From the NCBI GenBank assembly GCA_025965115.1, contig JAOPXO010000053.1:1-55090 (forward strand): 55,090 bases of DNA, written 5' to 3'. This DNA comes from Aeromicrobium sp. Its GTDB lineage: Bacteria; Actinomycetota; Actinomycetes; Propionibacteriales; Nocardioidaceae. The stretch's first letter is position 1. Every line of letters starts with the position of its first letter. The notes beneath the pieces were generated by a model. It was not told the origin of the DNA and did no database searches. It saw only the letters and a program-made list of their open reading frames with translations. This document shows, piece by piece, positions 17,057 through 20,380 of this stretch. The position numbers and the translations under genes were made by a program.

Positions 17057-17116
17057 GCATCCGGCTGGAAGTCGCCCCATCTGTCACGTTCTGCCCGGCT
17101 ACCTCGTTTGTGGGGT

Positions 17117-17518
17117 ATGACCACACGCATTCATCAGGCGATTCTGCTGATTTTGGCCGGCACTGGCGCAATTGTCGGTGTCTGGGCGACCGGATGGCCC
17201 AAGGGTTTCTACGATGCATTTCCCGGCTTCGGCCGTCACTGGGTCAGCATGGACGGCCCGTACAACGAGCATCTTGTCCGCGACGTCGGGGCGGCCTATC
17301 TGGCGCTGACAGTCCTGGCCTTCTACGCGCTGCGCAAGGCGCTTCCCGAGCTCGTTCGTGCCGCCGGAGCTGCCTGGCTGGTCTTCGGCGTCCTACATCT
17401 CGCGTACCACGTGGGCCACCTGGGGATGTGTGGGACGACCGACAAGATCCTCAACGTGGTGGCGCTCGGCGGATCGGTCGTGCTCGCTGCGGCGCTTCTC
17501 GTCCGTGCGTGCGATTGA
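17117..17518 (+). CDS. Conserved membrane protein, unknown function
   Basis: 133 residues with four membrane segments. The loop GFGRHWVSMDGPYNEHLVRDVGA and the later LAYHVGHLGMC give a conserved look with several histidines that could bind metal. I do not recognise the family. ATG at 17117 preferred over the upstream codon at 17108. Convergent with the tetR gene; the 33 bases between them show no clear terminator. Confidence 0.68.
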   Translation: MTTRIHQAILLILAGTGAIVGVWATGWPKGFYDAFPGFGRHWVSMDGPYNEHLVRDVGAAYLALTVLAFYALRKALPELVRAAGAAWLVFGVLHLAYHVGHLGMCGTTDKILNVVALGGSVVLAAALLVRACD

Positions 17519-17551: not shown

Positions 17552-18184
17552 TCAGGCGCCGGGAGTGACCGGACCGAGATAGCTGAGTGTCATCTCGACC
17601 ATCTCGTCGATGAACTTCTCGCGCGGGATCGCCGGCTGCTCGAGCACGTATTGGATGGTCAGGTGCTCCACCATCCGCACCAGAATCCATGCTGACGTCG
17701 CGGGTTCATCCACCCGCGTCTGAGACTTGTTGATCGACAGATAGGCGGTCACCAGATCGCTGATGCGCTGCTCGAGGGCTGTGGTCCAGCTGCCGAACTG
17801 CGCGCGCGGCAGCACCTCCACGACGAGCCGCAGGTACTCGATGTTCTCGCTCAAGACATCGAGAAGTCCGGTGAATGCAGCGCGTACGAGCTCAGGCCCG
17901 GGCTCGTCAAGCCGGTCGGCGAGCACGGCGGTCAGTTCGGTCGACAGATCCGCGGCATACCGATCGATCACCGCGGCCAGGATCGTCTCTTTGTCGGGAA
18001 AATATTGATACAACGAGCCCGGGCTGATGTCGGCCTCATCGGCCACCCGGTTGGTGGTGGTCCGCTCATACCCGTCACGCAGAAGCACTCGCTGACCTGC
18101 AGCGATGATGCGTTCGACCATTTCGCGCGAACGTTCCTGCTGAGGTGTGCGGCGCAGATCGCGCGCTGTTGGAGGGCGTGGCAT
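17552..18184 (-). CDS. TetR-family transcriptional regulator
   Basis: 210 residues. The N-terminal DNA-binding domain contains GYERTTTNRVADEADISPGSLYQYFPDKETILAAVI; the C-terminal ligand domain is of the AcrR/TetR type. Divergent from the MpaB-family gene, with a perfect palindrome in the shared promoter region, so it most likely represses itself and that gene. On the minus strand GTGACA, 16 bases, TACAAT, six bases, ATG describe a leaderless promoter whose spacer is almost filled by the palindrome. Confidence 0.93.
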   Translation of the reverse strand: MPRPPTARDLRRTPQQERSREMVERIIAAGQRVLLRDGYERTTTNRVADEADISPGSLYQYFPDKETILAAVIDRYAADLSTELTAVLADRLDEPGPELVRAAFTGLLDVLSENIEYLRLVVEVLPRAQFGSWTTALEQRISDLVTAYLSINKSQTRVDEPATSAWILVRMVEHLTIQYVLEQPAIPREKFIDEMVEMTLSYLGPVTPGA

Positions 18185-18198
18185 ATGCGAATTGTATG

Positions 18199-18212
18199 CG
18201 AGCAATTGCTCG
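18199..18212. promoter_or_regulatory. TetR operator, perfect palindrome CGAGCAATTGCTCG
   Basis: This 14-bp palindrome lies in the -35/-10 spacer of both divergent promoters: minus strand GTGACA (18218-18213) to TACAAT (18196-18191), and plus strand TTGTAT (18192-18197) to CACGAT (18216-18221). One bound dimer would block both genes. Confidence 0.75.
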
Positions 18213-18227
18213 TGTCACGATCTAACG

Positions 18228-19445
18228 GTGACTACAGACACCAGCATGGCCCTGCCGACCCGGTTCCGCTCCGGCGAAGAACGTGGCGCACGACTCGGGC
18301 GGGTGCTCAAGACCGTCGGCCGGGTGAAGTCGGTCAACGAGGAACAGATGGCTCGGATCGGCACGCGATTCCTGGAGCGGGACGAGATCGGTGCAACTCT
18401 CGCCCTGGCGATGCGCTCCACCGGGGAGGACAAGGTCTCGATGGCGCAGTTCCATCAGGCGCTCGTCCATGGAATCGGCACGGTTGAGTCCGCTCCCCCG
18501 GCGCTCCGCGATTTCTTCGCGGCCGTTGACGCCGTGCCGGAGTGGCTGGACTTCGATCTGGTCAACGAGGGTGCACGCGTCTATCGACGGTCCGGCAAGA
18601 CCGGCGCGGACGTCCTGCTGCAGCTGTCATTGCTCGGGGGCTACCGATTCGGCGGTCCGACCGACTTGCTGGTCGCGACTGGTGGCCTCACCGGCGACAC
18701 GACGATGCGCCGCCTTGGCGAGACCCAGAAATGGGGCGTCGCGGTGTCCGAGCACGATGCGATGCGTCGGGACGGTGAAGGTTTCCAGCTCACGGTCCAC
18801 GTACGCCTGATGCATGCCCTGGTCAACCACCGGTTCGAAGGCGGGGATCGGTGGGACACCGCAACCTGGGGCCTGCCGATCAACCAATCGGATCAGGCCG
18901 CGACATTGGGGCTGTTCAACGGCGTCTTCTTGCTCGGTGTGCGCTCGCTGGGCGTGCGGATCACCGCCGCGGAGTCACGAGCCGTCATGCACCTGTGGAA
19001 ATACGTGGGTTGGCTGATGGGCGTCAACGATGACTGGTTGTTCGACGCCGAGCGCGATCAGCACGCGTTCAACTACCACGTACTTCTTGCGCAATCGGAC
19101 ATCACCGAGGCCGGTCCGCAGCTCGCGAACGGGATCCTCGACGCCCAGTCCCAGCTGCACTTCGCACGCTTCGAGCGTGTCGGTCGCGCGTACACGCGCG
19201 CTCGGCTGCTGAGCATGTTGCGGCCGTTCCTGGGCAAGGAGAGCATGCGCGAGCTCAGGCTGCCGGTCCGGTTGCCGTGGGCGACCTTCGTGGTGCTGGT
19301 GCCGAATCTGGTCAACCATCACCTGTTGGGACGGACGGCATGGGGCGAGCGACGACTGCAGGCCAGGGCGACGAAGGCGCGCAACACGATCATGTTTCGC
19401 CACTTCGGACCCGACGCTCCCGAGATCGGCAAGATCGCGGCCTGA
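18228..19445 (+). CDS. Oxygenase MpaB family (DUF2236, rubber-oxygenase-like) protein
   Basis: 405 residues. The region from LVNHRFEGGDRWDTATWG to VMHLWKYVGWLMGV is typical of the MpaB/latex-clearing-protein-like DUF2236 domain, whose characterised members are b-type heme oxygenases acting on polyisoprene or prenyl chains. The substrate here is unknown. A C-terminal hydrophobic stretch (WATFVVLVPNLVNHHLL) may associate with membrane. GTG at 18228 chosen: CACGAT lies six bases upstream; the track start is inside tetR's promoter. Controlled by the divergent TetR. Confidence 0.85.
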   Translation: MTTDTSMALPTRFRSGEERGARLGRVLKTVGRVKSVNEEQMARIGTRFLERDEIGATLALAMRSTGEDKVSMAQFHQALVHGIGTVESAPPALRDFFAAVDAVPEWLDFDLVNEGARVYRRSGKTGADVLLQLSLLGGYRFGGPTDLLVATGGLTGDTTMRRLGETQKWGVAVSEHDAMRRDGEGFQLTVHVRLMHALVNHRFEGGDRWDTATWGLPINQSDQAATLGLFNGVFLLGVRSLGVRITAAESRAVMHLWKYVGWLMGVNDDWLFDAERDQHAFNYHVLLAQSDITEAGPQLANGILDAQSQLHFARFERVGRAYTRARLLSMLRPFLGKESMRELRLPVRLPWATFVVLVPNLVNHHLLGRTAWGERRLQARATKARNTIMFRHFGPDAPEIGKIAA

Positions 19446-19477: not shown

Positions 19478-19726
19478 ATGGCTACCGATCAATCGATTCA
19501 CGAGCACATCACCGCACTGGTTGACGAAGAGAAGAAGCTGCGCGAGCAGCTCGGTCATGGCGAGGTCACCCAGGGCGAAGAGCACGCGCGTCTTGCCAGC
19601 ATCGAGGTCGAGCTCGACCGTGCATGGGACCTGCTGCGCCAGCGCAAGGCACTCCGAGAGACTGGCGGTTCGCCCGACGACGCCGCCGAGCGATCGGCCG
19701 ACATCGTCGAGAAGTACCTGGGCTGA
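19478..19726 (+). CDS. DUF2630 family protein
   Basis: 82 residues, almost entirely charged alpha helix: HITALVDEEKKLREQL, then HARLASIEVELDRAWDLLRQRKALRE, then a short C-terminal tail. It matches the small actinobacterial DUF2630 family; function unknown, probably a coiled-coil dimer. TACACT lies exactly six bases before the ATG (leaderless). The next gene starts three bases after its stop. Confidence 0.85.
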   Translation: MATDQSIHEHITALVDEEKKLREQLGHGEVTQGEEHARLASIEVELDRAWDLLRQRKALRETGGSPDDAAERSADIVEKYLG

Positions 19727-19729
19727 CCC

Positions 19730-20380
19730 GTGCAGATCACCCGTTTCGGCCACGCGGCCGTGCTCGTGGAGGTCGCCGACACCCGGATCCTGGTCGACCC
19801 CGGTGTGTTCAGTCCTGACGAGACCTTTGCCCTGGAAGGGCTCGACGCGATCGTCGTCACGCACCAGCACGCCGATCACATCGATCCGGCTCGCGGCGCG
19901 GGTCTCCTCGCGCTCAATCCGGACGCGACGTTGATCTGCGACCCGGAGACCGCAGCCACGTTGACGTTCGGCAGTTGGACGCCCAACTCAGACGGTGTCG
20001 CAACCCAGGTGAAGGGCGCCACGATCACCGGTGTGGGCGCGCAGCACGCCGTCATCGTGCCCGCACTCCCCCGCGTCGCCAATGTCGGCGTCCTCATCAC
20101 AGCGCCCGACGAGCCCGTACTTTTCCTCGCCGGGGACACGTATGAGTACGTGCCGAGCGGCGTCGACGTACTCGGCGTACCGCTGGCGGCGCCATGGGCC
20201 AAGATCAGCGAAACCGTCGAATTCGTGCAGCGCGTGGCGCCGCGGGTGATGTTCCCGGTGCACGATCGGACGATCGCCGATCTCGCGTACGGCATGTACT
20301 GGGGGCACCTCACGAATTTCGGGGGCGTCGAGGATGGCCGCATGTTGGGCCAGGGCGAGTCAACGACAGTCCCTGCCTGA
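19730..20380 (+). CDS. MBL-fold metallo-hydrolase (UlaG-like)
   Basis: 216 residues. FGHAAVLVEVADTRILVDPG and VTHQHADHID give the metallo-beta-lactamase fold with the HxHxDH metal site; a later FPVHD supplies a further ligand. The layout resembles the small UlaG-type hydrolases of actinobacteria. The substrate is unknown. GTG start, translated directly after DUF2630 in the same transcript. Confidence 0.82.
   Translation: MQITRFGHAAVLVEVADTRILVDPGVFSPDETFALEGLDAIVVTHQHADHIDPARGAGLLALNPDATLICDPETAATLTFGSWTPNSDGVATQVKGATITGVGAQHAVIVPALPRVANVGVLITAPDEPVLFLAGDTYEYVPSGVDVLGVPLAAPWAKISETVEFVQRVAPRVMFPVHDRTIADLAYGMYWGHLTNFGGVEDGRMLGQGESTTVPA

Follow-up and report, generated by a model that had tools for sequence, protein, structure and literature searches.

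A predicted TetR operator shared by the overlapping divergent promoters of tetR and an MpaB-family oxygenase gene in Aeromicrobium

In the window, which is the whole 55,090-nucleotide stretch of DNA analysed here and stems from a 3.03-Mb Aeromicrobium assembly that is 88% complete, a TetR-family gene on the minus strand and an MPAB_Lcp_cat gene on the plus strand are separated by a gap of 43 bp. An earlier note on this DNA had placed a palindrome and two divergent promoters at this gap, and the positions it gave for the palindrome, for both promoters and for both start codons held to the base. The genes and sequence elements are as follows.

17552..18184, minus strand: tetR, a TetR/AcrR-family regulator of 210 aa with ATG at 18184 and the domains TetR_N and TetR_C_15.
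18228..19445, plus strand: mpaB-family gene (MPAB_Lcp_cat, PF09995) of 405 aa with GTG at 18228; the start position is conserved.
18199-18212, unstranded: perfect 14-bp palindrome CGAGCAATTGCTCG, the predicted operator core.
18196..18215, unstranded: predicted operator, a 20-bp imperfect inverted repeat ATGCGAG-CAATTG-CTCGTGT with the consensus AYGCGAG-N6-CTCGYRT.
18185-18191, plus strand: third half-site H1, ATGCGAA (consensus AYGCGAR), a direct repeat of 18196-18202 at 11 bp.
18192..18197, plus strand: predicted -35 element of mpaB, TTGTAT (TTGWAY in relatives; TTGTAT in 33, TTGAAC in 16 and TTGAAT in 16 of 72).
18216..18221, plus strand: predicted -10 element of mpaB, CACGAT (NANNNT), with A and T invariant in 72/72.
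18213..18218, minus strand: predicted -35 element of tetR, GTGACA (NTGACR in most relatives).
18191..18196, minus strand: predicted -10 element of tetR, TACAAT (TTCAAT or TTCAAC in other lineages).

Based on Pfam searches, the tetR product has an N-terminal TetR_N HTH domain above its gathering score (PF00440, 51.5 bits against 24), which places it in the TetR/AcrR family, and a C-terminal PF17918 domain (50.9 bits against 26.8). The plus-strand product matched PF09995 with an E-value of 2.4e-17 (64.2 bits against a gathering score of 23), and its closest solved relatives were structures of the Lcp rubber oxygenase (phmmer, 5o1m, E 4.5e-12). The label of MpaB-family oxygenase that this gene had been given is thus borne out by the PF09995 match, and the product is of the MpaB/Lcp type. 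A hydrophobic stretch was looked for at its N terminus (VTTDTSMALPTRFRSGEERGARLGRV) and none was seen, the top hydropathy window lying at residue 225. The genes around the pair were also inspected. Next to tetR, positions 17108-17518 encode a small predicted membrane protein without a Pfam match. On the 3' side of mpaB, a small protein without a Pfam match (19479-19727) is followed by a metallo-beta-lactamase-fold protein (19730-20380), which is also found downstream of mpaB in other Aeromicrobium and not outside the genus.

The palindrome CGAGCAATTGCTCG occurs as a single exact copy in the whole 3.03-Mb assembly. Perfect 14-bp palindromes are not rare in such DNA: the window has 12, where a first-order Markov control gives 8.4±2.8, which rules out the palindrome by itself as a feature beyond chance. 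We determined the anatomy of the operator from the conservation of each column over 72 nonredundant loci, which are phylogenetically related so that the column counts overstate their independence. Invariant or nearly invariant columns were GCGA at 18187-18190, TTG at 18192-18194, A at 18196, GCGA at 18198-18201, TCG at 18210-18212, T at 18215, A at 18217 and T at 18221. These fall on the arms of the inverted repeat, on the third half-site, on the TTG of the -35 and on the A and T of the -10 element. The six bases at the operator centre (18203-18208) vary between species. The half-site H2 is AYGCGAG at 18196-18202 and H3 is the inverse of AYRCGAG at 18215-18209, and together they form the 20-bp inverted repeat. 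The dyad pair 18202/18209 changed jointly from G:C to A:T in five nonredundant loci (permutation 0.0002, a value that ignores kinship). The earlier note had taken the 14-bp palindrome as the binding unit; its variable centre and the conserved arms that reach to 20 bp led us to reject this. In Mumia quercus the inverted repeat occurs once more upstream of the main operator, as GGCGAGCGATCGCTCGCATGG, and there lacks the third half-site.

Relatives of the MpaB protein were gathered from genome collections, the divergent TetR was placed by tblastn, and the block GCGAATTGWANGCGAGN6CTCGYRTCA was scored over 24 positions. The comparison covered 95 distinct TetR–MpaB loci, ranging from Aeromicrobium to Acinetobacter, and each of them had the block, with 20-24 matches in every complete TetR-linked locus, whereas MpaB-family loci that have no TetR relative next to them scored 14-17. 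Two loci were not counted as complete, one truncated at a contig end and one decayed. In the decayed locus, only C-terminal fragments of tetR and mpaB are left, directly adjoining each other and without the operator, as if a single deletion had taken out the middle of the module. Records fetched afterwards behaved alike: an A. baumannii locus whose divergent TetR has 24% identity scored 20/24, and four plasmid mpaB genes without a tetR scored 15-16 of 24. Outside the class, a locus from Thermoleophilaceae has a 20/24 version of the block.

In Aeromicrobium, the motif was found in 17/17 genomes that have a full-length close mpaB homologue. Searching this genus with the motif only, we recovered both genes in five further congeners and a sixth match at which mpaB runs off the contig; the four remaining pattern matches lacked both genes and seem to be due to chance. 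In a second family, a pattern-only search gave 30 sites, 29 of which had a TetR relative on one side and an MPAB gene on the other. Outside the class, about 315 further Actinomycetota genomes gave no match to the strict pattern. The recognition helix of the regulator, SPGSLYQYFP, is nearly invariant in the actinobacterial regulators linked to the operator and reads SVGSIYQYFE in Acinetobacter, and this conservation is consistent with the fixed arms of the operator.

It could be argued that an unrelated regulator uses the palindrome as its site, or that the palindrome is fortuitous, with tetR a neighbour by coincidence, as about eight perfect 14-bp palindromes are expected per window. We consider this very improbable. 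Conservation of the block extends across phyla and goes along with the presence of this TetR, the block is lacking at MpaB-family genes that have no such TetR, and searches with the pattern only return TetR neighbours. The earlier proposal of a TetR operator common to two overlapping divergent promoters accordingly gained support as a prediction. We regard the cross-species conservation as decisive for the view that the block is functional sequence. The predicted palindromic operator lies in the shared intergenic region, over both promoters, and is conserved along with the regulator, as in a divergent switch. Judged from these comparisons, the module is real, old (Actinobacteria and Acinetobacter) and conventional in kind.

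The two promoters were predicted with different ease. A promoter scan detected the minus-strand promoter alone (10/12, with 0.1 expected in shuffles); it has a 16-bp spacer (18212-18197), of which the palindrome takes 14/16 bases, and six bases from the -10 element to the ATG at 18184. The mpaB promoter has an 18-bp spacer, also with six bases from the -10 element to the GTG at 18228, and its hexamers are weak by the E. coli consensus. The ANNNT type of -10 element dominates mycobacterial promoters (PMC6448022), and the conserved TTGWAY-18-NANNNT supports the mpaB promoter, as expected for an ANNNT -10. The promoter may nevertheless be weak because the first base of its -10 element is usually C.

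Both genes had been proposed to be leaderless. The start codon of mpaB lies 14-16 nt past the CTCG arm and about 6-8 nt past the -10 element in 91/95 loci, the exceptions being one Aeromicrobium and three Acinetobacter loci with starts 39-45 nt away. With an ANNNT -10 element ending 6-8 nt before an ATG or GTG at a conserved distance, a leaderless mpaB is well supported. For tetR the proposal stood for the window and for the lineages with a TACAAT element, and did not stand as a general rule. Aeromicrobium, like some others, has the arrangement NTGACR-16-TACAAT, with the start at 6-8 nt in 24/24 assignable TACAAT loci. Other lineages have mostly TTCAAY, and with TTCAAT, TTCAAC or other -10 hexamers the start is usually elsewhere, so that a leaderless tetR is supported only for the TACAAT lineages, including Aeromicrobium. 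About 24% of the transcripts are leaderless in M. smegmatis (PMC6448022), which makes such a geometry ordinary for the group.

Drawing on the anatomy of the operator, its conservation, its linkage to TetR and the geometry of the starts, which can be read directly in the DNA, we propose that the locus is very probably controlled by an autoregulated TetR repressor, with the operator placed in both overlapping promoters so that mpaB and tetR are switched off together until a ligand releases the protein. A TetR dimer would bind the 20-bp inverted repeat at 18196-18215, and the bound operator would fill the spacers between the -35 and -10 elements of both divergent promoters. TetR would in this way repress its own gene together with that of the MpaB/Lcp-type heme oxygenase, and the ligand would release it. 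The mpaB gene (GTG 18228) and, in the Aeromicrobium lineage, tetR (ATG 18184) would be transcribed without a 5' leader. The switch is most likely of the conventional autoregulated divergent type, and otherwise appears unusually compact, at about 40 bases, and unusually well conserved.

TetR could instead repress itself from the same operator and yet activate mpaB, a remodelled 18-bp spacer being one conceivable means. With its 18-bp spacer and CANNNT -10 element, the mpaB promoter looks weak and might depend on assistance, and the A and T of the -10 and the TTG of the -35 element are fixed around the operator. However, a position in the spacers of both promoters is the classical position of a repressor, and TetR-family proteins are mostly repressors (PMC4482099). 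Activation of one promoter by a dimer bound in the spacer would also be awkward because both promoters share the same bases. We therefore consider activation improbable, and keep repression of both genes as the preferred reading.

The third half-site was an element absent from the earlier reading of the locus. It is conserved equally with the operator, the GCGA of H1 being present in 70-72 of 72 nonredundant loci in each column, and it is a direct repeat of H2 at a distance of 11 bp, which corresponds to one helical turn. Comparison of the half-sites gave no dyad partner for H1, and its role is for this reason conjecture. H1 is kept in five loci where tetR is up to about 1 kb distant, and also in Acinetobacter. 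At three of these five, a gene of about 1 kb on the strand of tetR lies between the operator and tetR and by a look at its sequence resembles a GAF-type sensor protein. The persistence of H1 with a distant tetR, with an inserted gene and in Acinetobacter means that it does not simply come with the start of tetR. Lying over the -10 and start region of tetR, H1 probably recruits a second protomer or dimer, or offers an alternative register, and its engagement would strengthen the occlusion. Were a second dimer to sit on the same face in an unchanged register, the two would collide, which makes an offset dimer, or else an alternative register, likelier. H1 might also have been conserved as part of the tetR 5' end or of an upstream promoter element rather than as a contact of TetR, a possibility that fits the missing dyad partner and the overlap of H1, in the window, with the bases between the tetR -10 element and the ATG. 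We hold this to be rather unlikely, as the AYGCGAR consensus is retained under all three of the circumstances named above, and continue with H1 as a probable TetR contact.

Additionally, we looked for partners of the switch that could point to its ligand. Across about 70 loci, TetR and MpaB were the only recurrent genes, and no further conserved neighbour that would name the substrate was found. In the genome of the window, no second operator site was found at 0 mismatches, and the matches with 1 mismatch were not clearly above a reversed-pattern control. In seven Mycobacterium and Mycolicibacterium loci a second, different MPAB_Lcp_cat gene directly follows mpaB (Pfam was run for one of them, L038). 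Two or more additional MPAB_Lcp_cat subfamilies are paired with the same TetR and operator, as in five loci of one genus (g42, family f7) where the MPAB genes belong to other subfamilies. Two loci of this genus have tandem MPAB_Lcp_cat genes of different subfamilies behind one TetR operator.

In one genome (G484) an operator of 22/24 precedes a beta-oxidation-type operon at position 102742 of contig C21. The cluster encodes a thiolase, an ECH/3HCDH fusion, an acyl-CoA dehydrogenase, a second thiolase-like protein and an NMO, a related TetR_C_15 regulator lies 13 kb downstream at the other end of the cluster, and no MpaB was found in the region read around the operator. The ligand need therefore not be the substrate of the oxygenase. 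The recurring partner appears to be an MPAB enzyme, with this one hint towards fatty-acid-like metabolism. The idea in the earlier note that the ligand relates to the oxygenase substrate is plausible, and the ligand is perhaps a lipid, a lipid-derived acid or an acyl-CoA related to the substrate of the enzyme. Tentatively, and as a possibility that we would not yet favour, a cross-phylum TetR subfamily with a three-half-site operator in two overlapping promoters could be a dedicated sensor for several MPAB/Lcp-type subfamilies, with higher-order TetR binding over H1 and a lipid- or isoprenoid-derived acid or acyl-CoA as ligand.

If true, this would give a route to the substrates of MPAB/Lcp-type oxygenases. 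For the majority of bacterial MpaB/DUF2236-type oxygenases the substrate is not known. As MpaB is accompanied across phyla by a regulator with a precise operator, the ligand can be sought and the regulon predicted in a testable way, and AYGCGAGN6CTCGYRT with the upstream AYGCGAR is a ready search motif that already points to the beta-oxidation operon.

Regulators of related enzymes have been described. LcpR-VH2 and LcpRB-A3(2) are TetR-family regulators of the rubber oxygenase, whose gene likewise belongs to PF09995 (PMC8235351). The Streptomyces LcpRB operator, TATGTTAAT-N2-AAAATCACA (PMC8235351), is unrelated to AYGCGAGN6CTCGYRT. Lcp is a secreted Tat substrate, whereas no secretion signal was seen here. 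In a single pairwise alignment limited to the catalytic region, R164, T168 and H198 of Lcp K30 (PDB 5o1l/5o1m) align to R, T and H of the product, and K167, the remaining residue in contact with the heme, is matched by Glu. The nitrile rubber oxygenase Nro1 is another MpaB-family enzyme. InbR (Rv0275c) of M. tuberculosis and BCG is a TetR-family regulator in a similar setting, with a footprint, TGCCGCTAATTATGGAAACACCTGTATCCTGATATTGGCCGG (PMC4564863), that does not contain the AYGCGAG repeat. The differing published operators rule out InbR and LcpR as the same system.

A search for the operator letters in the set of papers covered here found no match; the survey of mycobacterial TetR regulators gives its motifs as figures only (PMC4482099), and the present operator may therefore match one of them. 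The locus resembles divergently oriented, autoregulated TetR-family repressors, as in the TetR/TetA paradigm and this survey (PMC4482099), in having a divergent TetR and target with a short intergenic region, a palindromic predicted operator over both promoters and a non-efflux enzyme as target. In contrast to these switches, it has a third conserved half-site in direct repeat, its promoters overlap almost fully, and mpaB, as well as tetR in the Aeromicrobium lineage, is apparently leaderless.
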